Assembly: GCF_000423365.1 (NCBI RefSeq)
Contig: NZ_AUHV01000006.1
Coordinates: 62,001 to 126,000, forward strand
Length of the DNA: 64,000 nt
Origin: Maritalea myrionectae DSM 19524
GTDB lineage: Bacteria > Pseudomonadota > Alphaproteobacteria > Rhizobiales > Devosiaceae
Direction of reading: 5' to 3'
In this document: one piece after another, positions 2,468 to 15,481 of the stretch
Position numbering within the stretch: the stretch's first letter is position 1
Layout of the letters: each line of letters starts with the position of its first letter
The notes under the pieces: generated by a model
The model's input: the letters and a program-made list of their open reading frames with translations, nothing else
What the model was told of the DNA's origin: nothing
The model's database searches: none
Translations under genes and position numbers: made by a program

Positions 2468-3082
2468 CTAGGCGGCATATTTTTCTAAAAAGGCTTCGGC
2501 GGGCAAGCTGCGCATATCTTTTAAGCTGTCTTTCAGCTTCTCCCGCGGCCAATCCCACCAGGCCAAGTCTTGCATCTGTTCGGCGATTTTGGGTGTGAAC
2601 CGCTCTTTGATCGTTTTGGCAGGCACTCCGCCGACAATGTGATAGGGCGGCACATCTTTTGATACGACTGCTCCGGCGCCGATCACTGCGCCAGTGCCAA
2701 TCGAAACGCCGGCCAAAATCGTCGCGCCATGGCCGATCCATACATCGTGTCCAATGGTCACCTCATGCTCTTTTCGCCAGGAAAAGAACTCGGTGTCATC
2801 GTCGCCCAAGCCAAAGGCGGCTGCACGATATGAAAAATGATGTTGGCTGGCGCGCCAGGTCGGGTGGTTGCCCGGGTTGATCCGGACATCGCTGGCGATG
2901 GAGCAGAACTTGCCGATCTTGGTCCAAATGATCTGGCAACGCTGCATGGCATAGGAATAGTCACCCAAGCGCGAGTCGACAAAAATGGTGTCGTGTCCCA
3001 ACTCGGTCCAAACGCCTAAATCGCTGCCTTGGGTTTCGGTGTTGGGGCCGATGGTTGGGGCTTGGGATAATTGCTTTGCCAT
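2468..3082 (-). CDS. Phosphonate-locus hexapeptide-repeat acetyltransferase (CatB-like)
   Basis: A 204-residue left-handed beta-helix acyltransferase. Hexapeptide repeats run through [18 protein letters not shown] and the [18 protein letters not shown] region to [20 protein letters not shown]. This is the acetyl-CoA-dependent xenobiotic acetyltransferase type that is repeatedly found in C-P lyase operons (the phn-linked transferase hexapeptide family). It is eight bases downstream of phnN. The natural substrate is unproven. N-acetylation of aminoalkylphosphonates, the job of PhnO elsewhere, is a reasonable inference because no PhnO-type GNAT is present in this locus. Confidence 0.85.
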
Positions 3083-3090
3083 TGCGGTAC

Positions 3091-3651
3091 CTATTTTTGA
3101 ACGGCGCGGATGAGGTGAACAAGCTTTTCAACCCCGACCACGAGCGACTGATCGTTGCTAATTGTGGTTTGGGGTAGCGCCGGATCGAGCGCATCCACCT
3201 TGCGGTTCAAACGCTGCTCAATTTCTTCTTTGTTTTCCCGGCCACGCCCAGCCAATCGCTCCGCGCGCAGTTCCACAGGTGCGGTGATGTTGATCACGTG
3301 GATGGGATATTTTTGGTGGGCGATGGGCAGTTGGTTGCGCGATGTGTTGCAGATCAGGGTTTTGCCCGCGCGCAGGTCATCTTCAATGGTTTTCGGGATG
3401 ATATAGCCAAGCCCATGGGCGCGCCAATGCAAGGCAAAGTCGCCCTGCTGCACCATCTCTTCATATTGGGTTTCGCTGATCGTGCCATGATCTTCCAGTT
3501 CGGCCATGGCCTCCCGCGTGATCAGGCGACGTACAAAGCTGATATTGGGTTCTTGGCTGAGCGCACTTGCCGCGCCCGCCATCAAACTGTCCTTGCCCGC
3601 ACCCGACGGCCCAACAACAAAGATCAAAATGCCCTTATAGGCGTCCGACAT
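3091..3651 (-). CDS. phnN: Ribose 1,5-bisphosphate phosphokinase PhnN
   Basis: A 186-residue guanylate-kinase-like P-loop protein. Walker A is GPSGAGKD (residues 14-21). A conserved HWRAHGLGY segment and the C-terminal [12 protein letters not shown] lid-like helix are typical of PhnN. It phosphorylates ribose 1,5-bisphosphate to PRPP, the last step of the C-P lyase route. It lies ten bases after phnM and eight before the acetyltransferase gene, within the minus-strand operon. Confidence 0.93.
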
Positions 3652-3661
3652 AGTGTGTTCC

Positions 3662-4801
3662 CTAGATCACGCGTTCGCCATCGCGCCAAACGGCGCGTAC
3701 GATCGGCACACCGTCTTCGGGTAAATGCACCCGCGCAAAGTCTGCCTTTTTGCCCACAGCCAGTTCGCCTCGATCATCAAGCCCTGCCGCTCTCGCTGGA
3801 TTGAGCGAGACTTTGGCGATGGCGTCGGGCAGGCTGATTTGCTCTACATTTTTGGCCAGCTTGAAAGCCCCCTGCATCAGTGAGAAGGGCACATAGTCGG
3901 AGCTGAGCACGTCGAGCAGGCCTTCGCTGGCCAATGATGTGGCGGAAATATTGCCAGAATGAGATTTGCCGCGCACCACGTTTGGCGCGCCCATCAAAAT
4001 GGCGATATTGGCGTCGCGCGACGCTTTCGCCGCTTCGATGGTGGTGGGGAATTCGGCAATGCCGACACCATCTGCCTGCGCCTCAGCAACATGATCGATT
4101 GTCGCGTCATCGTGGCTGGCGAGGGTCAGACCGATTTCATGACCACGTTTCACGATAGCCTGACGGTTTGGTGCGGAATATTGCTCGTGCTCGGCGATCC
4201 GCGCGGCGATGAATTTTTCCATCTCCGCATCATTCATGCCAGTTTTGCCTTGGTAATAAAGGTAATATTGTTCCAGCTGCATAAATTGCCGCTGGCCGGG
4301 TGTGTGGTCCATTAGCGAGGCCAGTTTCACCAACTCATTCTGGCAATATTGCTCGAACTGCTCCAAGGCATCATGGCTGGACAATTCGCAGCGCAAATGG
4401 ATCAAATGATCTGAGCGAAGGCGTTTTTCAGCTTTGGCTTTGGTGATGGCGCCCACCAAGACGTCCACATGCTCGCCCATATTTTTCATATCGGTGTCGG
4501 AGCCGATCCGCACCGCGTCAAACACCGTGGTGATGCCAGATGAGGTGACTTGCGCATCGTGGGCGTGCAACGCGGCCATGGGGTCCCAAAAGACACCGGG
4601 GCGCGGACGGTAGTGGCTTTCAAGATGGTCGGTGTGCAGCTCTACCAGGCCAGGCACGAGATAGTCGCCATCGAAGTCGAGACCCGACTCCCCGCTGTTC
4701 GCCATGTCGGCGATCATGCCGTCTTTCACGTTCAGGGCGCCTGTCATTTCGCTGTCGGCAAGGATCAGCTTTGCATTTTTAATGCTTAGATTTTCGGTCA
4801 T
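3662..4801 (-). CDS. phnM: Ribose 1-methylphosphonate 5-triphosphate diphosphatase PhnM
   Basis: A 379-residue amidohydrolase-superfamily enzyme. The metal-binding ELHTDHLESH motif lies near residues 53-62, further ligands are in the SHDDAT segment, and the C-terminal SLNPARAAGLDDRGELAVGKKADF is typical of these metallohydrolases. PhnM removes pyrophosphate from the 5-triphosphate formed by PhnGHIL, giving the 5-phospho substrate of PhnJ. Length fits the family. It is 17 bases downstream of the DUF1045 gene. Confidence 0.95.
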   Translation of the reverse strand: MTENLSIKNAKLILADSEMTGALNVKDGMIADMANSGESGLDFDGDYLVPGLVELHTDHLESHYRPRPGVFWDPMAALHAHDAQVTSSGITTVFDAVRIGSDTDMKNMGEHVDVLVGAITKAKAEKRLRSDHLIHLRCELSSHDALEQFEQYCQNELVKLASLMDHTPGQRQFMQLEQYYLYYQGKTGMNDAEMEKFIAARIAEHEQYSAPNRQAIVKRGHEIGLTLASHDDATIDHVAEAQADGVGIAEFPTTIEAAKASRDANIAILMGAPNVVRGKSHSGNISATSLASEGLLDVLSSDYVPFSLMQGAFKLAKNVEQISLPDAIAKVSLNPARAAGLDDRGELAVGKKADFARVHLPEDGVPIVRAVWRDGERVI

Positions 4802-4818: not shown

Positions 4819-5511
4819 TCAGCCCCTTAGGGGATAATCTTCTAATCGGACAAAAGGCGCGCCCTTTTCAGGTTCATGATAAAGCGCCAAATTGTTGAAG
4901 GTGTAGGTGCGTTCCAACTCGGCCGTAAACCATTGTTGCGCCGCCTCGAAGAACAATTTTCCGGCCAACTCATCCACTTGCCCTGTCAGGGTCAAATGCA
5001 TTTTGAATTGCTCGCTCACATAGGGGTAGCCCCATTGGTCGAGCAGTTCGATTTGACGGTCATTGAGGCCAGCGGCGATGCGTTCTTGCCGTTTTTCTTG
5101 GCTCAGCGGCGCGCGATAGTGATCAAAGTGGTGCACCACTTTTCGGGCGAGTTCGGTCACGTCCTCACTTTGATGCGCGGGCACGATGGCGACAAATCTG
5201 CCGATCTGATGCACTTTTAAGCTGCCAATTTCGACGGGCTTTTGCGCATCTGCAAAGGCTTTCAGGTCGCGCCGCAGAGAATCGATATTCGTATTCTCCG
5301 CCAAATGAAATGGTGCCTTGATGGTGGCATGAAATCCATAACGCCGTGGCGAGGCAGTGAACTCATATTGGTCCACCGGCGTGATGCCTTCAATGGAAGG
5401 TTGCGCCAGTTCGCAATTTTGGTGGCAGTCGCGCCCCAGCCATTGGCTGGCTTTTTGCCACAAAGAGTCATTTGTGGCTGGCGCATAATATATCGCATAA
5501 CGCTCAGACAT
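4819..5511 (-). CDS. DUF1045 phosphonate-locus protein, 2H phosphoesterase-like
   Basis: A 230-residue protein of the DUF1045 family often annotated as a phosphonate metabolism protein. Two H-x-T motifs, HAT at residues 61-63 and HLT at 172-174, are the catalytic signature of the 2H phosphoesterase / RNA ligase-like fold. That fold acts on cyclic phosphodiesters or 2',5'-linkages. The start at 5511 follows an AAGG and gives the conserved SERYAIYYAP opening. It sits between phnL and phnM. The locus lacks phnP, whose product opens 5-phosphoribosyl 1,2-cyclic phosphate, so a role in that step is an attractive inference, not shown here. Confidence 0.85.
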   Translation of the reverse strand: MSERYAIYYAPATNDSLWQKASQWLGRDCHQNCELAQPSIEGITPVDQYEFTASPRRYGFHATIKAPFHLAENTNIDSLRRDLKAFADAQKPVEIGSLKVHQIGRFVAIVPAHQSEDVTELARKVVHHFDHYRAPLSQEKRQERIAAGLNDRQIELLDQWGYPYVSEQFKMHLTLTGQVDELAGKLFFEAAQQWFTAELERTYTFNNLALYHEPEKGAPFVRLEDYPLRG

Positions 5512-5601: not shown

Positions 5602-6309
5602 TTAAGCTGCCTGTTGTACCGCAAATTTGGTGACATCAATCACACGATCCGCCACCTTGTCGCGGGTGTCAGCGTCGTGAAAAATGCCCAGCATGGCGGT
5701 GCCGTTGGCGTTGCGTTCCTCAATCAAAGACAGCACAACTTGTCGGTTGGCTGCATCAAGCGAAGCCGTTGGCTCGTCGAGCAGCAGCAATTTATGTTCG
5801 CCCATAAAGCCGCGCGCAATGTTCACCCGTTGTTGCTCGCCGCCAGAGAAGGTGGCGGGGGGCAGGCCCCACAAATGCTCGGGAATATTCAATTGGCCAA
5901 GCATTTTTGCGGCCTTTTCTTGGGCCACCTCTTCGCTGTGGCCCCATTGCCGTGCGACTTGCGCCACCAGATCGAGGGCGGACACGCGGGGGATGGCGGA
6001 GAGGAACTGGCTCACATAGCCGATGGTGGATTGGCGTAGGCGCAAAATCTCCCGGGGAGAGGCTTGGACCAAATCGGTGTGCTGGTCGCCATGAGCGATG
6101 ATGATTTCACCGGCATCAGCTGCATAGTTGCCATAGATCATTTTCAACAAGGTGGATTTGCCCGCGCCGGAGGGGCCGCCAAGCACCACGCATTCGCCAG
6201 CGAAGACTTCAAATCCTGCCCCGTCCATCACGGGCAATTGCAAACCATTTTGCAAATGCATCACGAAGGATTTGGTCAGGCTTTGAACGCTCAAAATTGG
6301 CTGTGTCAT
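5602..6309 (-). CDS. phnL: C-P lyase system ABC-type ATPase PhnL
   Basis: A 235-residue ABC ATPase. Walker A is GGPSGAGKST (residues 44-53), the signature is FSGGEQQRVNIARG and Walker B is LLLLDEPTASLD. PhnL is part of the C-P lyase machinery, not a membrane transporter, and is needed with PhnGHI for ribose 1-methylphosphonate 5-triphosphate formation. It begins two bases after phnK. The 90-base gap before the DUF1045 gene is the longest break inside the phnG-phnN core. Confidence 0.93.
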   Translation of the reverse strand: MTQPILSVQSLTKSFVMHLQNGLQLPVMDGAGFEVFAGECVVLGGPSGAGKSTLLKMIYGNYAADAGEIIIAHGDQHTDLVQASPREILRLRQSTIGYVSQFLSAIPRVSALDLVAQVARQWGHSEEVAQEKAAKMLGQLNIPEHLWGLPPATFSGGEQQRVNIARGFMGEHKLLLLDEPTASLDAANRQVVLSLIEERNANGTAMLGIFHDADTRDKVADRVIDVTKFAVQQAA

Positions 6310-6311
6310 GA

Positions 6312-7103
6312 TTAGCTCCCCACATGCAGAATGGATGACACCAAAAGTTGGGTATAGGCTTGGTGTGGATCATCAAGAACCTGGTCGGTTAGACCTTGCT
6401 CAATCACCTCGCCGTCTTTCATCACCATAATCCGGTCAGACAACAAACGTGCGACAGCCAGATCGTGCGTCACGATAATGATGGAAAGGCCAAGTTCCGA
6501 GACCAAACGGCGAATCAAATCGAGAAGCCGCGCTTGCACAGACACGTCGAGGCCGCCGGTTGGTTCGTCCATAAACACAAGGCGTGGATTGGTCACCAGA
6601 TTGCGGGCAATTTGCAATCGCTGCTGCATGCCGCCAGAAAAGGTGCGGGGCGCGTCATCGATGCGATCTGCCTGAATTTCCACTTTCTCCAGCCAGTCGA
6701 GGGCGGTGTCGCGGATCTTGCCATAGTGGCGATCACCCAGCGCCATCAGGCGCTCGCCCACATTGGCACCGGCGGAGACATTCATGCGCAACCCATCGCG
6801 CGGATGCTGGCGCACAAAGCCCCAATCGGTGCGCAGTAAAATGCGCTGCTGGGCTTCGTTCATCTCATAGAGATTGTCCGACTGCCCCTTGCGATTGCGA
6901 TAATAGACTGCGCCATCTGTAGGAATGATCTGGGTGGAGAGGCAATTGAGTAGAGTGGTTTTGCCCGACCCGCTTTCGCCCACAATGGCCAGCACTTCGC
7001 CGGGATAGAGATCGAAATTGACATTCTTGCAGCCCAGTTGCTGGCCGTAGAAATGGGATAGATTTTTCACGCTCAACAAAGGCAAGTCTTGATCAAGGCT
7101 CAT
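6312..7103 (-). CDS. phnK: C-P lyase system ABC-type ATPase PhnK
   Basis: A 263-residue ABC ATPase resembling the oligopeptide-transporter ATPases. Walker A is GESGSGKTT, the signature is FSGGMQQRLQIARNL, Walker B is LVFMDEPTGGLD and the H-loop is VTHDLAVARLL. PhnK docks on the PhnGHIJ core complex. The start overlaps the phnJ stop by four bases, so translation is coupled. Confidence 0.94.
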   Translation of the reverse strand: MSLDQDLPLLSVKNLSHFYGQQLGCKNVNFDLYPGEVLAIVGESGSGKTTLLNCLSTQIIPTDGAVYYRNRKGQSDNLYEMNEAQQRILLRTDWGFVRQHPRDGLRMNVSAGANVGERLMALGDRHYGKIRDTALDWLEKVEIQADRIDDAPRTFSGGMQQRLQIARNLVTNPRLVFMDEPTGGLDVSVQARLLDLIRRLVSELGLSIIIVTHDLAVARLLSDRIMVMKDGEVIEQGLTDQVLDDPHQAYTQLLVSSILHVGS

Positions 7104-8002
7104 TGCATGCGCTCCTTATAGTCGGCATTTAGCGGGCCAAGATGACCTTCGCTCTGGCGGGTTTCGCAATAGTCACTGTCTGAGCACACAAACATATTGT
7201 TGCCCGCATCATCCAAAATCACCTCGTCGAAATAGACGCCTTCAGCGCCGCACATGGCGCATTTTGTGTCGGGCCATTCCTGAATGGTGAAGGGGTGATC
7301 TTCAAAATCGAGGCTCACCACATCGGTGTAGGGCGGCAGGGCATAGATCCGCTTTTCCCGGCCTGCCCCGAACAATTGCAATGCCTTGGATTTGTGCATT
7401 TTCGGGTTGTCGAATTTTGGGGTCGGCGAGGGGTCCATTACATAGCGGCCCTCCACCATCACCGGATAAGCGTAAGTGGTGGCGATGTGGCCATGGGTGG
7501 CGATATCTTCATAGAGCTTCACATGGATCAGGCCATATTCGCTCAACGCGTGCATTTTGCGGGTCTCGGTTTCCCGTGGTTCCAAAAAGCGCAGCGGCTC
7601 GGGAATCGGCACCTGATAGACCAATGTTTGATGCGCTTGCAGCTCTTCTTCCGGAATGCGGTGCCGGGTTTGAATCACCGTGGCCTCTTTGGTGTGGGTG
7701 GTCAGTTCCACATTCGCGGTTTTCGCGAAGAAATTGCGGATAGACACGGCATTTGTTGTGTCGTCTGCGCCTTGGTCGATCACTTTGAGAATGTCGCTTT
7801 CGCCCAAAACGGAGGCAGTGACCTGCACGCCACCGGTGCCCCAGCCATAAGGCATGGGCATTTCACGTGCGGCGAACGGCACCTGATAGCCCGGCACGGC
7901 GATGCCTTTCAGGATCGCGCGGCGAATCATGCGTTTGGTTTGCTCATCGAGATAGGCAAAATTGTAGGCCGGGGCCGCATTGGTCAATTGATCAAGGCTC
8001 AT
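7100..8002 (-). CDS. phnJ: Alpha-D-ribose 1-methylphosphonate 5-phosphate C-P lyase PhnJ
   Basis: The catalytic radical-SAM subunit, 300 residues. The C-terminal cysteines fall at 248, 251, 273 and 279, the same spacing (3, 22, 6) as Cys241, 244, 266 and 272 of E. coli PhnJ. There the first three hold the 4Fe-4S cluster and the last forms the thiyl radical. All catalytic cysteines are therefore kept and the enzyme should be active. It overlaps phnI by four bases. Confidence 0.97.
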   Translation of the reverse strand: MSLDQLTNAAPAYNFAYLDEQTKRMIRRAILKGIAVPGYQVPFAAREMPMPYGWGTGGVQVTASVLGESDILKVIDQGADDTTNAVSIRNFFAKTANVELTTHTKEATVIQTRHRIPEEELQAHQTLVYQVPIPEPLRFLEPRETETRKMHALSEYGLIHVKLYEDIATHGHIATTYAYPVMVEGRYVMDPSPTPKFDNPKMHKSKALQLFGAGREKRIYALPPYTDVVSLDFEDHPFTIQEWPDTKCAMCGAEGVYFDEVILDDAGNNMFVCSDSDYCETRQSEGHLGPLNADYKERMQ

Positions 8003-9126
8003 TGGGCTGCCTCCATTTTTGGCGCATCATCGTCGCCATTTTCATTTTGCTGCGCGTCAAATTCCTTGCGCATGGTGCGGATCAGGTCCAATTCGGCTTG
8101 GAAATCCACATAGTGCGGCAGCTTCAAATGCTCCACAAAGCCTGTGGCCTGAATATTGTCGGAGTGTGACAGCACAAATTCCTGATCTTGTGCCGGGGCG
8201 GAAAATTCTTCGCCCAGCTCTTTCCAGCGGAGCGAACGATCCACCAGCGCCATCGACATAGCTTTGCGTTCCGCTTGCCCGAACACCAAACCGTAGCCGC
8301 GGGTGAAGGCCGGTGGCGCTTTGGCGCTGCCTTTAAACTGGTTGATCATTTGACACTCGGTCACTTCCATGGTGCCAATGGGCACGGCAAAGCCAAGCTC
8401 TTCCGCAAAGAACTCCACCTCGACTTCGCCAAAGCGAATTTCGCCGGCGAAAGGGTGCGAGCGGGCATAGCCGCGCTGGGTTGAGTAGCCCAGCGCCAGC
8501 AAAAAGCCTTCGTCACCGCGGGCCAGATTTTGCAGCCGCACATCGCGATCAGTTGGAAAGTCGATCGGGGTGCGGGTCAAGTCGCCTGTTTCATGGCCTT
8601 CGTCAAATCGATGGTCTGGCTCAATCATGCCGGACTTGCCCAAAATGTCCGAAACGCGCGGCACTTCCGCATTCAGATCAATGTCTTCGTCACTTGAAGG
8701 GGGTGTTTCCGGTGCCGCTTCCGCGTCGAAATCGAAATTGATCAGGCGGTGGGAATAGTCAAAAGTTGGCCCAAGCACTTGGCCACCGGGCAAATCTTTA
8801 AAGGTCGCCGAGATGCGGCGCTCGATGGCCATCTTGCCGGTTTCAATGGGTTCCGCATAACCAAAGCGCGGCAGGGTGGTGCGGTAGGCGCGGATCAAGA
8901 AGATCGCTTCGATCAAATCACCCTGTGCCTGCCGAATGGCCATGGCCGCCAATTCCGGGTCATAAAGCGAGCCTTCGCCCATCACGCGATCCACGGCGAA
9001 TGACAATTGCTCGGTGATCTGATCGAGGCGCAGGCCGGGCACATTTTCATTGCCACGACGTTTGGCAGCAAACAATGTGTGGGCGTTTTTGATGGCTTTT
9101 TCGCCACCCTTTACAGCAACATACAT
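7999..9126 (-). CDS. phnI: C-P lyase core subunit PhnI
   Basis: A 375-residue PhnI, the nucleosidase-type subunit that, with PhnG, H and L, transfers the ribose triphosphate of ATP to the phosphonate. Conserved stretches include the N-terminal MYVAVKGGEKAI and a central LGYSTQRGYARSHPFAGEIR. The C-terminal tail is short and acidic. It starts two bases after the phnH stop and overlaps phnJ, as expected for a complex made in stoichiometric amounts. Confidence 0.96.
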   Translation of the reverse strand: MYVAVKGGEKAIKNAHTLFAAKRRGNENVPGLRLDQITEQLSFAVDRVMGEGSLYDPELAAMAIRQAQGDLIEAIFLIRAYRTTLPRFGYAEPIETGKMAIERRISATFKDLPGGQVLGPTFDYSHRLINFDFDAEAAPETPPSSDEDIDLNAEVPRVSDILGKSGMIEPDHRFDEGHETGDLTRTPIDFPTDRDVRLQNLARGDEGFLLALGYSTQRGYARSHPFAGEIRFGEVEVEFFAEELGFAVPIGTMEVTECQMINQFKGSAKAPPAFTRGYGLVFGQAERKAMSMALVDRSLRWKELGEEFSAPAQDQEFVLSHSDNIQATGFVEHLKLPHYVDFQAELDLIRTMRKEFDAQQNENGDDDAPKMEAAQ

Positions 9127-9128
9127 GT

Positions 9129-9746
9129 CTATTCTCCTTGCGCCGGGTCAAGATTGATTTTGGTGGAGCGGGGCAGGGCAGCCAGTTGCGTTTCGGTCAC
9201 GAAAATATGGTCGATGCCCAAGGGATATTCCGCATTGTTGGCTTCAGCCTGCTGCCAGAATTTTTCGCTCAAACTAGATGAAGCGAAGGCGCGGCTGGTT
9301 TCAATGCCGGGTCCGGAAAGCGTGGCGCCTGCGTGATTGGCCAGATCGTTCACGGCGATAATGACCGTGGTGGATTGGTCAGGATATTCATGATTGCCCA
9401 TATTGAAAGCGTGGTCGCCTTCTAGGGCTTCCGCACTGCTCAGAAAGGCAAACTGCGCTTTTTGCGGGTCACTTGTTGTGGCCGCGCCGGTGTGGAATGC
9501 CAGGAATTGCCTTGTCTCGGCCGAATTGAGTGCCTCATCGAGATAGATCAACGTCTCCGCATCACAAAGGGTCAAGGCAACCATAGTAGCGACCGGATTG
9601 AGGGCGCCCGCATTGTCCACTTTATGTGGCGCATCATAGATTTTGCCTGGCTGCGCCATGGCATCCATAATGGATTTAAAGCTCTGCTGGCTTTGATGGG
9701 TGAGGTCGGTGAAGCCTTGTGCAATGGTTCGTTGTGGCATTGTCAT
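9129..9746 (-). CDS. phnH: C-P lyase core subunit PhnH
   Basis: A 205-residue PhnH, a PLP-transferase-like fold without cofactor that forms part of the PhnGHIJ core. Recognisable segments are the N-terminal QSFKSIMDAMAQPG and the C-terminal YPLGIDHIFVTETQLAALPR. The start codon overlaps the phnG stop as TAATG. A second in-frame ATG follows two codons later. Confidence 0.94.
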   Translation of the reverse strand: MTMPQRTIAQGFTDLTHQSQQSFKSIMDAMAQPGKIYDAPHKVDNAGALNPVATMVALTLCDAETLIYLDEALNSAETRQFLAFHTGAATTSDPQKAQFAFLSSAEALEGDHAFNMGNHEYPDQSTTVIIAVNDLANHAGATLSGPGIETSRAFASSSLSEKFWQQAEANNAEYPLGIDHIFVTETQLAALPRSTKINLDPAQGE

Positions 9747-10228
9747 TATCCGTCTCCCCGCACCATGGTGAAAAAGTCGACCTTGGTGGCCGCTGCTTTT
9801 TTCAGTTTGTCTTTTTTGGCCGTGACTTGCTCTTGCTCCAGCGGTGCGATGATGTTGGCTTCAACGCTTTGCTTGTGCGCTTCGCTCAACCAGGCGGCAT
9901 CGAAGAAAGCTGCAATGGCGGCTTTGCGTTGGTTGCGGCCTTGGCAATAGGCGTGGCCAACTTCACCACTTTCCAATTGAATGGCGGCGCGGGTCACAGT
10001 TATTTCGCCCAGATTAAACGGTGCCCCGCCGCCGCCGATCCGCCCGCGCGTCATCACGAGGCCTGTTTCAGGCTTGCGGGCGAATGTCCAGTCTGGCTTG
10101 TCAGCAAATTGCTCATACAGATCTTCAAGTTGTTGGTCGGGCGCTTGCGCCAAAACGCGCATCACGCGCTGGCGGGCAATCACCTCAGCATTTTCAGCTT
10201 GTGTGTCAGGGGAGGAAGGCGCGGTCAT
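9746..10228 (-). CDS. phnG: C-P lyase core subunit PhnG, first gene of the minus-strand phn operon
   Basis: A 160-residue PhnG with the conserved ARQRVMRVLAQAP opening, the TGLVMTRGRIGGGGAPFNLGE block and the GHAYCQGRNQRKAAIAAFFDA core. It works with PhnH, I and L on the first activation step. It is the promoter-proximal gene of the minus arm and faces phnF across an AT-rich region holding a candidate operator. Confidence 0.95.
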   Translation of the reverse strand: MTAPSSPDTQAENAEVIARQRVMRVLAQAPDQQLEDLYEQFADKPDWTFARKPETGLVMTRGRIGGGGAPFNLGEITVTRAAIQLESGEVGHAYCQGRNQRKAAIAAFFDAAWLSEAHKQSVEANIIAPLEQEQVTAKKDKLKKAAATKVDFFTMVRGDG

Positions 10229-10323: not shown

Positions 10324-10399
10324 TTTTGTTTGTATGGTTTATTAAAGTGCGAAATTGTTGCAGTCATATGACGGCATCAAAGGCTTGGGAGTGTGGAGT

Positions 10400-11125
10400 T
10401 TGAGCAAGATTGAGCGGGGGCAGGGCGTGTCCCTCTGGCGGCAAATCGCCGAGCGATTGCAGCATGAAATTGTGGCGGGTACCTACAAGCCGGGCACGCA
10501 ATTGCCGACAGAAGTCGAATTGGCAAATGATTATGAAGTGAATCGCCATACGGTGCGGCGCGCCATTGCGGCGCTCACGGAGAACGGGTTTCTCACCGCG
10601 ACGCGTGGCCGCGGCACCTTTGTGGCAGATGCGCCCATCACCTATCCGATTTCATCGCGCACGCGCTTTTCTGAAATTATCAGCGCCCAGAAGCGCCAGC
10701 CGGGTGGGCGGTTGATCTCTTCAGCAGAGGAAGCGGCAACTGAGGACGTGGCCAAGCATCTCGACATAGTGGCGGGCGATTCGGTGCTGCGCATCGAGAC
10801 CTTGCGGGTGGCCGACGGGGTGCCGATCACCGTGGCCACCATCTGGTTTCGTAAAGATTTGCTGCCTGATCTGGTGCCGCACTATGCCGAGTTGGGGTCG
10901 ATCTCAAAAGCATTGGCCCGGGCGGGCTATGAAAATTACAAGCGCGACAAGAGCTGGGTGACCGCCATTGCCGCTACGGCAGATGATGCGCGCCTGTTGC
11001 AGGTGGAGGTGGGGTATCCGCTGATGCAGATCACCAGCGTGAATGTGTCAGATTCAGGGGAAAAACTGCAATATACCCGTTCCCGCTTTCGGGGCGAGAC
11101 GGTGCAGTTGGAGATCGAAAGCTAG
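10400..11125 (+). CDS. phnF: Phosphonate metabolism GntR-family (HutC-type) regulator PhnF
   Basis: A 241-residue regulator. An N-terminal GntR winged helix (LWRQIAERLQHEIVAGTYKPG to TVRRAIAALTENGFL and GRGTFV) is followed by a UTRA effector domain with the VLRIETLRVADGVPIT motif. No in-frame ATG exists near the 5' end. I chose the TTG at 10400, which gives the conserved SKIERGQGVSLWRQ start and has GGGAG nine bases upstream. The frame opens upstream from a TTG at 10355. The product probably represses both phn arms; the ligand is unknown. Confidence 0.88.
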   Translation: MSKIERGQGVSLWRQIAERLQHEIVAGTYKPGTQLPTEVELANDYEVNRHTVRRAIAALTENGFLTATRGRGTFVADAPITYPISSRTRFSEIISAQKRQPGGRLISSAEEAATEDVAKHLDIVAGDSVLRIETLRVADGVPITVATIWFRKDLLPDLVPHYAELGSISKALARAGYENYKRDKSWVTAIAATADDARLLQVEVGYPLMQITSVNVSDSGEKLQYTRSRFRGETVQLEIES

Positions 11126-11256: not shown

Positions 11257-12114
11257 ATGTTGAAGCTGCAAAATATTAATCGTCGATTTGGAGACAAATT
11301 GGCGGTGAAAAATGTCAACCTCTCCATCGCCTCAGGCGAAATGGTGGGGGTGATCGGTCAATCCGGGGCGGGCAAATCCACCCTGCTGCGCATGATCAAC
11401 CAATTGATTGCCACCAGCGACGGGGCCATCGAGTTTGATGGCACCAAAGTCTCCAGCCTGAAAGGCGCTGACTTGCGCAATTGGCAACGTGATTGCGCCA
11501 TGATCTTTCAGCAGTTCAATCTGGTGCCGCGCCTAGATGTTTTGACCAATGTGATGTTGGGGCGTTTGAACCGGCGCAACACATTTTCTTCCCTCATCAA
11601 AAGTTTCACCGAAGAAGAGCAGCTTGAAGCGCTTGAAGCGCTGGAACGGTTGAGCATTGCGCAAACCGCGTTGCAGCGCGCGGGCACTTTGTCCGGCGGT
11701 CAGCAGCAGCGCGTGGCCATTGCCCGCGCCCTGATGCAGCAGCCAAAAATGATTTTGGCCGATGAGCCGATTGCATCGCTTGATCCGCGCAACGCGAAAG
11801 TGGTGATGGATAGTTTGAAGGCGATCAATGAAGATGACGGCATCACCGTGATCACCAATCTGCACACACTGGATACGGCCCGCAATTATTGCGAGCGGAT
11901 CATCGGCATGGCCCATGGTGAGGTGGTGTTTGATGGCCCGCCTGAAGCGCTGACCACTGAGGTGGCGCGCCGCATTTATGGTGCCGAAGGGCTGAAAGAT
12001 GCCTTCTCTGAAAGCATGACCTCGACTTCTCTTGAAGACGACAATGAGACACCCGCGCAAAAACGCCGCGGGCCCTATCGTGATGCCGACGAGGCGCACG
12101 TGACGCTGAATTGA
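11257..12114 (+). CDS. phnC: Phosphonate ABC transporter ATP-binding protein PhnC
   Basis: A 285-residue ABC ATPase. Walker A is [12 protein letters not shown], the signature is [15 protein letters not shown] and Walker B is [13 protein letters not shown]; the H-loop reads TNLHTLDTA. It energises phosphonate import. A roughly 30-residue hydrophilic C-terminal tail extends beyond the usual family end. AGGGG lies upstream of the ATG. It leads the phnCDE1E2 arm. Confidence 0.94.
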
Positions 12115-12173
12115 TGCGCTGAGGCGCAGCAATGAATTTCAACGGTAAACCGCATAATTTTAGGAGAATCCCC

Positions 12174-13079
12174 ATGAATGCGATCCGTACTGGCCTTTTG
12201 TCTGCTGTAGCTGTTGTGGCCATGTCCTCAACCGCCATGGCGCTTGATACATTCCGCGTTGGTATTTTGGGCGGCGAAAACGAAGCCGACCGTTTGCGCA
12301 ACAACCAATGCTTGATCGATCTATTGCCTGAAGCCATTGGCGTGAACAATGTTCAATTGTTCCCAGCTGCAGACTATGACGGTGTAATCCAGGGCCTTTT
12401 GGGCGGCACGCTTGATTATGCCGAGCTGGGTGCGTCTGGCTATGCAGCTGTTTATCTGCAAGACCCAGAGGCTGTAGATCCGATTTTGACCACCGAACAA
12501 GTTGATGGTGCAACGGGCTATCACTCCATCATGTTGGCCCGCTCAGATAGCGGCATTGAATCTTTGGACGATATGAAGGGCAAGCATCTTGGTTATGCTG
12601 ACCCAGATTCAACTTCAGGCTTCTTGGTCCCCTCCGTTGCCTTGCCTAAAGAATTGGGCATGCCCGTTGATGAATATTTCTCAGAAACCTCCTTCAATGG
12701 CGGGCACGAAAACAATGTGTTGGCGGTGCTGGACGGCAAAATTGACGGCGGTGTGACCTGGTCATCAGGCGTTGGTGAATATTTGGATGGCTACACTTCG
12801 GGCAATATCCGCAAGATGGTGGATAAAGGCCTTCTCGACATGGAAGACGTGAAAGAGATCTGGCGTTCGCCTTTGATCCCGAATGGTCCAATTGTTGTGC
12901 GTGCCGATCTGGAGGAAGATGTACGTGCCAAGTTCAAAGACTTCATGTTGAGCTTGCCAGAAACAAATCCTGATTGTTTTTCTGCCATCCAAGGCGGCAC
13001 ATATAACGGTTTCGTGGAAGTAGATCACTCATTCTACGAAACAATCGTTGACGCCCGTAAAGCCAAAATTGGCGGCTAA
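12174..13079 (+). CDS. phnD: Phosphonate ABC transporter substrate-binding protein PhnD
   Basis: A 301-residue periplasmic binding protein with a signal peptide cleaved after a TAMA-type site near residue 22. The TFRVGILGGENEADR start of the mature protein and the YADPDSTSGFLVPSVAL segment are typical PhnD ligand-site sequences. The ATG at 12174 has AGGAG eight bases upstream and begins the signal peptide; the longer frame from 12132 adds a leader without a ribosome site. A strong hairpin follows the gene. Confidence 0.95.
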   Translation: MNAIRTGLLSAVAVVAMSSTAMALDTFRVGILGGENEADRLRNNQCLIDLLPEAIGVNNVQLFPAADYDGVIQGLLGGTLDYAELGASGYAAVYLQDPEAVDPILTTEQVDGATGYHSIMLARSDSGIESLDDMKGKHLGYADPDSTSGFLVPSVALPKELGMPVDEYFSETSFNGGHENNVLAVLDGKIDGGVTWSSGVGEYLDGYTSGNIRKMVDKGLLDMEDVKEIWRSPLIPNGPIVVRADLEEDVRAKFKDFMLSLPETNPDCFSAIQGGTYNGFVEVDHSFYETIVDARKAKIGG

Positions 13080-13095
13080 TTCTAAAACCTCGTTG

Positions 13096-13124
13096 AAAGG
13101 ACCGGTCATGTTGACCGGTCCTTT
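13096..13124 (+). terminator. Strong intercistronic hairpin between phnD and phnE1
   Basis: A perfect 13-bp stem (13096-13108 and 13112-13124) with a three-base loop ends in only a few T residues. It sits 17 bases after the phnD stop and within the phnE1 leader. Such elements usually give partial termination or protect upstream mRNA, raising the binding protein over the permeases. Confidence 0.7.
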
Positions 13125-13150
13125 TGCATATCTATGTGGAGCGCGATTTG

Positions 13151-14119
13151 ATGGGTGCTGTTAGCCAATCTTCACCGCCAAAACTTTCTGATGCCACCAA
13201 AAAGGTGCATCAACATTATCAAGAGCTGGCGCGAACCAAAAAGCTTTATAGCTTTCTCACCATCGGTATTCTCGGGGCCATTCTTGTGGCGGCCTTGTGG
13301 TTTGCCAATGCCTCGAACTCGGGCAAATTTATTGATCGCATCCCGTATTTTTTCGATTTTGTTTTGAATTTCTTGCCGGACGATCCTTTGGAGATTTTCC
13401 GGGCCCTGTTTGATTTGCCGTCGCCCTATGCCGATGGTTCGTTGAAATATGATTATGAAGAGGGGCGGCATTATCTGTTCGGCGATTTTTATCTGCCTGA
13501 ATATTTTTATGAAATGCTGGTCACCCTCAATATTGCTTTTGTGTCCACGCTGTTGGGCGGCGGCATTGCCTTTGTGCTCTGCTTTTTCGCAGCCTCCAAT
13601 CTGGTGGGTTCCAAAGCGGTGCGCTTTGTGGTGCGCCGCATCATGGAGCTGCTGCGCGCCTTCCCCGAAATTGTGATTGCAGGCTTGTTGGCTGCGATCT
13701 TGTCGCTGGGTCCAATTGCAGCGATTGCCGCGGTGTCGATCCACACGATCGGCGCGTTGGGCAAGCTGTTTTTCGAAGTGGTGGAAAATGCCGACATGAA
13801 ACCGGATGAGGGTTTGCGGGCCGCGGGCGCCAGTTGGGTTGAGCGGGTGCGCTTTGCCATTGTGCCGCAAGTGCTGCCCAACTTCACGTCCTATGCCTTG
13901 CTGCGCGCTGAGATCAATGTGCGTGCCTCCACCATCATTGGTGCGGTGGGCGGCGGCGGTATTGGCGAAGTGTTTCGCCTGTCTTTGTCGCGCGATCATG
14001 CGGCGAAAACATACGCCATTATTCTTTTGCTGTTTGTCACCATCGTCGCCGTGGATCAGCTGTCGGGCTGGCTGCGCCGCAAGATGGTGGGCGATCAAGC
14101 GTTCCAGTTCGGCGCATAG
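13151..14119 (+). CDS. phnE1: Phosphonate ABC transporter permease PhnE (first copy)
   Basis: A 322-residue inner-membrane permease with an N-terminal membrane segment (ILGAILVAALWF), a soluble stretch and a BPD-transport domain containing the ATPase-coupling loop near DEGLRAAGASWVERVRFAIVPQVLP. I prefer ATG 13151, which has GGAG nine bases upstream, over the upstream TTG at 13124 that lies in the hairpin. It pairs with phnE2 to form a heterodimeric channel. Confidence 0.9.
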   Translation: MGAVSQSSPPKLSDATKKVHQHYQELARTKKLYSFLTIGILGAILVAALWFANASNSGKFIDRIPYFFDFVLNFLPDDPLEIFRALFDLPSPYADGSLKYDYEEGRHYLFGDFYLPEYFYEMLVTLNIAFVSTLLGGGIAFVLCFFAASNLVGSKAVRFVVRRIMELLRAFPEIVIAGLLAAILSLGPIAAIAAVSIHTIGALGKLFFEVVENADMKPDEGLRAAGASWVERVRFAIVPQVLPNFTSYALLRAEINVRASTIIGAVGGGGIGEVFRLSLSRDHAAKTYAIILLLFVTIVAVDQLSGWLRRKMVGDQAFQFGA

Positions 14120-14125
14120 GGGGAT

Positions 14126-15481
14126 ATGACCATGTTGACCACCACAATCCTCACCGCCGAACGGCAAGCCGAGCTAAAAGAGCAATATGCCGAGGTGTTT
14201 CACAAAGACCCGGTGAAAAAGTTTCGCCCGCTGGCGATTGTCGCGGCGTTGCTGGCCTATCTCGTGGCCTGCTTTTTCTTTTTCAATATTCCGCAGGTTT
14301 TCTCCGATGCCAAATGGGACCGGGCCGGGCTTTATATGGCCGATTGGGTGTCTTGGCAGGCGCAGCCAAAGTTCCGCTTCCGCGATGATGGGCTGGAACT
14401 GCAATATCCGCGCTTTTCACCCCTTGGGGCCGAGCCAGATCCAAGTTGGGTGATCGCCAATGAAACCGCCGATGCCTATCGTGTCGATTTTGGCCCGAGC
14501 GATTTTATCGTCGTGCAAGAAGGTCTGGTGGAGATCACCAAGGGCGGACAGCGTTTTGAGGTGGTGATCACCGATGATGAAGCTCTTTTGCCGCCCAACG
14601 CCACCAGCGCTTTTGAAGCCCGCAACGGCCGCGTGAAATTCAGTTTTGGCTTTGCCGGCAATATTGAAATTCGCAACACCCAAGTGCGCGTTTGGCGCCG
14701 CTTTTGGGGGTGGGAGAATTTCTTCTTTGATCCGAGTTCAGCTTTTTGGGGTATGAACGGATTTGAAGTGATCTCGACGATTGCTGCTGGGCCGCAACTT
14801 GCCGAGGGCCAAAGCAATCTGAGCGTGGCGATCAATGACTTTCTTTATAATGCCGAATGGCAGCATGCAGACGTGTTTGTGAAATTGCTGCAAACCATTG
14901 TGATGGCCTTTGTGGGTACGTTGTTTGCGGGCATTCTTGCCTTCCCGCTGGCCTTTATTGCCGCGCGCAATATCACACGGTCTAACGCCGCCAACTGGTT
15001 TATGAAGCGGGCGTTCGACTTTTTGCGCTCGGTCGATATGCTGATTTGGGCGCTGTTTTTCACCCGCTCATTCGGGCCGGGACCGATTGCCGGTATCGCG
15101 GCGATCTTTTTCACCGACACGGGTACGCTCGGCAAACTTTATTCCGAAGCCTTGGAGAATGTCGACGACAAGCAACGCGAAGGCGTGAAGTCATTGGGCG
15201 CGTCGCCAGTGGAAGTACAGCGCTTCGGCGTGGTGCCGCAAGTGCTGCCGCTTTTTGCGTCGCAAGCGCTCTATTTCTGGGAATCCAACACCCGATCCGC
15301 CACCATTATCGGGGCGGTAGGCGCGGGCGGCATTGGCCTCAAACTGCTCGAAGCCATGCGCACCGGCACCGACTGGGAAAATGTCGGCTATATGGTGATC
15401 TTGATCCTGATCGTCGTGTTTGTCTTTGACAATATCTCGAACTATTTGCGCACTAAGCTGATCGGGGAAGAGGCGCGTTAG
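14126..15481 (+). CDS. phnE2: Phosphonate ABC transporter permease PhnE (second copy, long form)
   Basis: A 451-residue permease. The C-terminal 210 residues are a normal PhnE domain with coupling loop EGVKSLGASPVEVQRFGVVPQVLP. Between the first membrane helix (about residues 35-55) and that domain lies an insert of about 190 residues without membrane segments, presumably periplasmic. It follows phnE1 by six bases. The ATG at 14132 has better spacing from GGGGGA and may be the true start, two codons inside. Confidence 0.88.
   Translation: MTMLTTTILTAERQAELKEQYAEVFHKDPVKKFRPLAIVAALLAYLVACFFFFNIPQVFSDAKWDRAGLYMADWVSWQAQPKFRFRDDGLELQYPRFSPLGAEPDPSWVIANETADAYRVDFGPSDFIVVQEGLVEITKGGQRFEVVITDDEALLPPNATSAFEARNGRVKFSFGFAGNIEIRNTQVRVWRRFWGWENFFFDPSSAFWGMNGFEVISTIAAGPQLAEGQSNLSVAINDFLYNAEWQHADVFVKLLQTIVMAFVGTLFAGILAFPLAFIAARNITRSNAANWFMKRAFDFLRSVDMLIWALFFTRSFGPGPIAGIAAIFFTDTGTLGKLYSEALENVDDKQREGVKSLGASPVEVQRFGVVPQVLPLFASQALYFWESNTRSATIIGAVGAGGIGLKLLEAMRTGTDWENVGYMVILILIVVFVFDNISNYLRTKLIGEEAR

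Follow-up and report, generated by a model that had tools for sequence, protein, structure and literature searches.

Which protein opens 5-phosphoribosyl 1,2-cyclic phosphate (PRcP), the cyclic phosphate made by the C-P bond-cleaving enzyme PhnJ, in a bacterium whose phn operon carries no phnP? Methylphosphonate and other phosphonates are opened up as phosphorus sources by the C-P lyase pathway, which releases methane in the sea. The question is raised by a stretch of 64,000 nucleotides from Maritalea myrionectae DSM 19524 (contig NZ_AUHV01000006.1, positions 62,001 to 126,000), here called the window, in which a DUF1045 gene lies among the phn genes. An earlier note, made from the sequence alone, suggested that its product replaces PhnP.

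The idea of such a replacement is already in print. A PhnP-like role was proposed for the 2H protein RcsF (Martinez et al., 2013; PMC3840354), rcsF was described as perhaps analogous to phnP (PMC5649143), an Aminobacter study names DUF1045, repeats the proposed role and calls the function still uncertain (PMC8235418), and a 2023 review repeats the idea, referring to a survey of 54 operons in which 27 had phnP and 16 of those without it had rcsF (PMC10574752). We infer that RcsF of Martinez et al. (2013) is DUF1045. Between the RcsF/DUF1045 proteins of C-P lyase operons and the protein described here we see no difference of substance, as family, position beside phnM/phnN and absence of phnP are the same. 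Indirect genetic support for the role comes from fosmid B3_TF_MPn_2, which encodes a 2H protein and no phnP and with which E. coli lacking phnHIJKLMNOP grows on methylphosphonate (PMC3840354). In Phaeobacter, the proteins listed for the response to phosphorus stress include a DUF1045 protein alongside PhnI, PhnJ, PhnL and PhnM (PMC10132767). No assay of a DUF1045 protein was found in the open-access literature. Added here are the genome-wide absence of PhnP, a larger exclusion test together with its phylogenetic limit, and a PhnP without active site beside an intact DUF1045.

Results

The phn locus of M. myrionectae

The candidate PRcP phosphodiesterase gene is located at 4819..5511 on the minus strand and comprises 230 codons with the ATG at 5511; the mechanically called open reading frame begins at an upstream GTG (5553). 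A reading of 4819-5511 in frame 1 of the plus strand was ruled out by three stops. The earlier note had described a DUF1045 protein between phnL and phnM, which is borne out by the PF06299 match and the gene order, although the strand had to be corrected to minus. The gaps are 90 bp to phnL (5602..6309; TIGR02324, 313.5 bits) and 17 bp to phnM, encoding ribose 1-alkylphosphonate 5-triphosphate diphosphatase (3662..4801; TIGR02318, 487.2 bits). On the same strand, in the order phnG-H-I-J-K-L-DUF1045-phnM-phnN, are phnG (9746..10228; PF06754, 178.2 bits), phnH (9129..9746; PF05845, 204 bits), phnI (7999..9126; PF05861, 544.9 bits), phnJ (7100..8002; PF06007, 486.3 bits), phnK (6312..7103; TIGR02323, 393.5 bits) and phnN, the ribose 1,5-bisphosphokinase gene (3091..3651; TIGR02322, 184.2 bits, cut-off 156). 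The enzyme expected to take over ribose 1,5-bisphosphate is thus encoded in the locus, as had been noted. The operon ends with a hexapeptide-repeat transferase gene, also on the minus strand (2468..3082; TIGR03308, 295.3 bits), and genes of this family turn up in many of the phn loci read. Divergently, on the plus strand, a phnF-like GntR regulator gene (10355..11125) is followed by the transporter genes phnC, phnD, phnE1 and phnE2 (11257..15481). These five were named by eye from their translations, whereas phnG-H-I-J-K-L, phnM and phnN were assigned by family matches; the regulator gene has the same place in two Maritalea loci and the order of the transporter genes is the same in both.

The closest relatives found are the proteins of Maritalea mediterranea and M. 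mobilis (87% and 84% protein identity), with the same gene order. Identity to the 32 homologues compared is 31-40%.

Search for PhnP and PhnPP elsewhere in the genome

That phnP might be encoded elsewhere had been named beforehand as the point to check, and the entire genome (99.28% complete; 3.54 Mb in 10 contigs) gave no match over the cut-off of TIGR03307, the PhnP family. The best match (27.7 bits) is a 273-aa protein of the metallo-beta-lactamase fold, encoded beside genes that by eye are tatD-like and metG-like. Weak matches to TIGR03307 are common: they occurred in 11 of 14 control genomes, of which only E. coli, also the sole carrier of PhnJ among the 14, passed the cut-off. The alternative enzyme PhnPP belongs to the PHP-domain family. 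No candidate for it was found in the genome, where the PHP domain is limited to two open reading frames with products of 1171 and 1148 aa, lengths that would suit DNA polymerase III alpha subunits.

Family membership and conserved motifs

With 166.8 bits against a cut-off of 24.3, the window protein belongs to PF06299 (Pfam DUF1045). Its sole NCBIfam match at E 0.001 is TIGR03223, a 'putative phosphonate metabolism protein' family (Phn_opern_protn), which it matches nearly over its full length (residues 4-229) with 246.2 bits, 2.7 below the cut-off of 248.95. The window protein did not match TIGR03307 and shows no profile similarity to PhnP, and was therefore rejected as a PhnP itself.

The two H-x-T motifs described earlier are present as HAT at residues 61-63 and HLT at residues 172-174. 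In an alignment of 78 DUF1045 proteins, from which the fragmented copies in G194 (L086) and L017, which is the same place as L034, were excluded, H61 and H172 are invariant (78/78), so that the motifs are not due to chance. Thr63 is found in 75 of the 78 sequences; at position 174, 74 have Thr and one has Ser. R133, P67 and G161 are invariant as well, and R144 is present in 72 sequences. A third H-x-T/S match of the window protein, HQS at 113, is not conserved in this alignment. Both motifs also occur in all nine complete further DUF1045 copies, a tenth being cut by a contig end; no further usable homologues were found in the viral contigs scanned. Three sequences deviate at both Thr sites (HGV...HMP). 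They are orphan second copies from one genus (L054, L057 and L066 in G107, G253 and G043), and the phn-linked copies of the same genomes keep both motifs; by sequence, the deviating copies are likely inactive or altered paralogues.

A relationship to known 2H proteins was found by profile comparison. Using hhalign, a DUF1045 profile that retained 71 of the 78 sequences aligned with 17 ThpR/LigT proteins at E 0.0012 (single comparison; HH probability 18.9) over 135 columns with both motifs in register, and 11 unrelated phn families used as controls all gave E 0.1 or worse. Against one ThpR sequence, the similarity was weak and covered only the second motif (E 0.029, probability 1.7). A profile built from 33 of the 78 sequences had a lone match in the PDB at E up to 10, Bacillus subtilis YjcG (2d4g; E 0.042), again with both motifs in register, neither stretch being significant alone. 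A 2H relationship is thus indicated by the profiles with modest statistics. AlphaFold2 models were of low confidence, with a mean pLDDT of 39 for the window protein alone and 37 when two Maritalea copies were added.

Distribution of DUF1045 and PhnP

A first sample of 398 Pseudomonadota genomes contained full-length PhnJ in 83 and strong DUF1045 matches in 69; the search for PhnP covered all 83 genomes with PhnJ and 17 others. Left out of the counts were G040, with an 18.9-bit PhnJ fragment containing stops, and G210, G288 and G371, with DUF1045 matches of 37.8, 30.1 and 19.3 bits. PhnP scores in this sample are bimodal, at least 296 bits or at most 85.9 bits. The co-occurrence of DUF1045 with the absence of phnP, which the earlier note had suggested testing, came out as follows: among the 83 PhnJ genomes, 62 have only DUF1045, 19 only PhnP, none both and two neither. 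Within the class of M. myrionectae, DUF1045 is present in all 58 sampled genomes with PhnJ, and PhnP reaches the cut-off in none of them. The two types meet within one family (f44), with DUF1045 in G246 and PhnP in G366. The Fisher value for the exclusion, 8e-17, is inflated by shared descent and is therefore not taken as proof. On PhnJ trees of 75 of the 83 PhnJ genomes, to which 8 rows of a second sample were then added, the DUF1045 label needs two to three changes and gives one to two independent contrasts. Consequently, the operon type is mostly inherited, and a sign test cannot reach significance.

The second sample comprised 369 genomes of the class of G249, some of them common to the first sample, and was searched for DUF1045 and PhnP. 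Strong DUF1045 matches were present in 10 genomes and PhnP passed the cut-off in four, with no overlap at these thresholds. A PhnP gene over the cut-off (L160 in G554; 333.7 bits) stands in a 20-kb stretch in which comparison with the window proteins recognised no phn gene; very divergent ones could escape this comparison. Plasmid records were examined for a second genus with both genes; at least 146 of them match DUF1045 and at least 22 match the degenerate PhnP described below. In the Methylibium and Thiothrix operons read, phnP is present, with no annotated DUF1045 within 8-10 kb.

The two PhnJ genomes with neither gene are G374 and G377 (C-P lyase loci L010 and L011). No remnant of PhnP was found within 20 kb around phnJ in either of them, and phnN of G374 also looks split between frames. 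Some bacteria may thus manage without a dedicated enzyme. G178, of the same genus as G377, carries PhnP (L087).

Genomic neighbours

For 62 of the 78 DUF1045 copies, phn genes are found on the same fetched stretch, and in 60 of the 61 phn-linked copies other than that of the window the next recognised gene is PhnM or PhnN. DUF1045 and phnN overlap by 4 bp in three genomes, at the stop of DUF1045. At all 18 PhnP loci read, PhnN is the next gene recognised. PhnN over the cut-off is encoded in 59 of the 62 genomes with DUF1045 and PhnJ, in all nine PhnP genomes tested (of 19) and in one of the seven DUF1045 genomes without PhnJ. The frequency of PhnN together with DUF1045 and PhnJ points to ribose 1,5-bisphosphate, and not ribose 5-phosphate, as product. 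A different arrangement is seen in family f18 (G299, G325, G319 and G321), where the phn cluster is without DUF1045 and a single copy is encoded elsewhere in the genome; G392 and G167 look alike.

A degenerate PhnP beside DUF1045

G502 and G620 are draft genomes of two gammaproteobacterial species from a single genus. In each, the operon with DUF1045 also encodes a PhnP homologue that scores below the cut-off (141.9 and 117.3 bits, respectively). The order in G502 is phnC-D-E-G-H-I-J-K-L-M-DUF1045-N-PhnP, and G620 is the same from phnJ on, where the contig ends. The homologues (L145:8202-9005 and L146:4876-5679, both on the minus strand) have intact frames of 267 codons, and their best NCBIfam family is TIGR03307, over residues 1-246 of 267. 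Compared with E. coli PhnP (3g1p), H76, H78, D80, H81, H143, D164 and H200 are lost in both genomes, and C21, C23, C26, H222, H225 and the THVSH motif are retained (E. coli numbering). The seven lost residues, together with H222, are all present in 27 of 27 other sequences, namely E. coli PhnP, the 19 and four PhnP over the cut-off of the first and second sample, and three weaker relatives. In PhnP, the seven lost residues belong to the catalytic site, and the cysteines together with H225 to the structural zinc. DUF1045 of both operons retains both motifs (YGFHATLKP and FRFHLTLTG), and scores 294.5 and 292.5 bits against TIGR03223.

With 0.49 (bootstrap 0.32-0.72), the dN/dS ratio of the degenerate PhnP exceeds those of the other five genes compared (DUF1045 0.38, PhnN 0.42, PhnL 0.37, PhnK 0.22, PhnM 0.20). 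Together with the intact frame, this argues for a conserved protein without catalytic site rather than plain debris. No report of a PhnP with a dead active site was found in the open-access literature.

Discussion

The window gene most likely encodes a 2H-fold phosphoesterase, predicted from motifs and profiles, that takes the place of PhnP in the C-P lyase pathway. The suggestion that DUF1045 replaces PhnP gains support from the lack of phnP in the genome, the pattern of co-occurrence (62/19/0/2) and the loss of the PhnP active site beside DUF1045. From these data we infer the fold, the activity on PRcP, the bond cut and the roles of single residues. DUF1045 would open the PRcP ring by means of its two H-x-T motifs, with His61 and His172 acting as acid/base pair and Thr63 and Thr174 holding the phosphate. 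The product would be ribose 1,5-bisphosphate, which PhnN would then convert to PRPP.

PhnP (TIGR03307) converts PRcP to ribose 1,5-bisphosphate, the reaction proposed for DUF1045, and has the same neighbour, PhnN. However, PhnP is an unrelated, metal-dependent enzyme of the beta-lactamase fold with the HxHxDH motif, to which DUF1045 shows no profile similarity (E 0.64). The RNA 2',3'-cyclic phosphodiesterases ThpR/LigT resemble DUF1045 in their two H-x-T motifs, which align in register, as do, more weakly, those of YjcG. In contrast to DUF1045, ThpR has a gap at about residues 126-153, a stretch that contains R133 and R144 and that, judged by the alignment, perhaps serves the 5-phosphate. Plant and yeast 2H cyclic phosphodiesterases open ADP-ribose 1'',2''-cyclic phosphate and leave the phosphate on C1. 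This is the chemistry needed for PRcP, but these enzymes form another 2H family with a eukaryotic RNA-processing context.

DUF1045 might act more broadly, as a 2H phosphoesterase on ribose 1,2-cyclic (or 2',3'-cyclic) phosphates in general; PRcP would then be one of several substrates, and ADP-ribose 1'',2''-cyclic phosphate could be another. Such breadth would suit the seven of 69 strong-DUF1045 genomes that are without PhnJ, as all seven copies have both H-x-T motifs. Two of the seven adjoin PhnM or PhnM and PhnN and thus look like remnants of lost pathways, which speaks against a broad substrate range. The other five (L004-L008) lack phn neighbours, apart from a generic ABC ATPase next to one of them, and with their intact motifs and the lack of PhnJ they could possibly represent a second function of the family. 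Also in line with several substrates, the four of these five whose surroundings were scanned (not L006) share no context, their neighbours being a SpoU methylase, a mannose-1-phosphate guanylyltransferase-like protein, a LacI regulator and an M20 peptidase, and unlinked copies do not form one clade. Nevertheless, 62 of the 69 DUF1045 genomes have PhnJ and most copies (62/78) share a stretch with phn genes, so that we consider a general phosphoesterase possible but rather doubtful.

An involvement of DUF1045 in both steps, giving ribose 5-phosphate and phosphate, would resemble PhnPP of Eggerthella, which reportedly forms these products. Three genomes with DUF1045 and PhnJ (G016, G032 and G246) have no PhnN over the cut-off, as would be expected in this case, but the other 59 of 62 do, and in G246 a PhnN-like match scores 135 bits. 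To our knowledge, 2H enzymes are known for ring opening and not for monoester hydrolysis, and we judge a two-step DUF1045 to be very improbable. It is also conceivable that a generic enzyme opens PRcP, such as the housekeeping metallo-beta-lactamase-fold protein beside tatD, and that DUF1045 is auxiliary in the operon. Candidates of this kind are widespread, since TIGR03307 has a match at E 1e-4 in 76 of 80 PhnJ genomes, in 58 of these below the cut-off only, and G374 and G377 contain C-P lyase with neither DUF1045 nor PhnP. Weak matches occur in 10 control genomes without PhnJ as well, though, and a generic enzyme leaves the mutual exclusion of DUF1045 and PhnP unexplained; moreover, where the two share an operon, in a single genus, the one that has lost its active site is PhnP. 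An auxiliary DUF1045 therefore appears unlikely.

Under the preferred reading, in which DUF1045 replaces PhnP, the simplest interpretation of the degenerate homologues in G502 and G620 is that DUF1045 would have made PhnP catalysis dispensable there; the case amounts to one evolutionary event. It is tempting to speculate, and on balance we lean towards this, that DUF1045 has truly replaced PhnP without being homologous to it, and that at least one gammaproteobacterial genus shows this takeover caught in the act. The operon there would retain PhnP as a pseudoenzyme that has lost the catalytic metal site, keeps the structural zinc residues and is still subject to purifying selection; it may serve DUF1045 or PhnN as a scaffold or regulator.

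Conclusions

On the contrary side, phnP was assigned to seven Marivita genomes by KEGG annotation in one study (PMC8774927); this phnP may be a housekeeping relative. If annotation relied on PhnP alone, pathways with DUF1045 would be called incomplete, or the step would be given to such a relative. The operon with a dead PhnP makes the old assignment of DUF1045 directly testable. Given that every PhnJ genome sampled from the class of M. myrionectae has DUF1045 and none has PhnP over the cut-off, the step that follows C-P cleavage would, in this class, rest on the predicted role of DUF1045.
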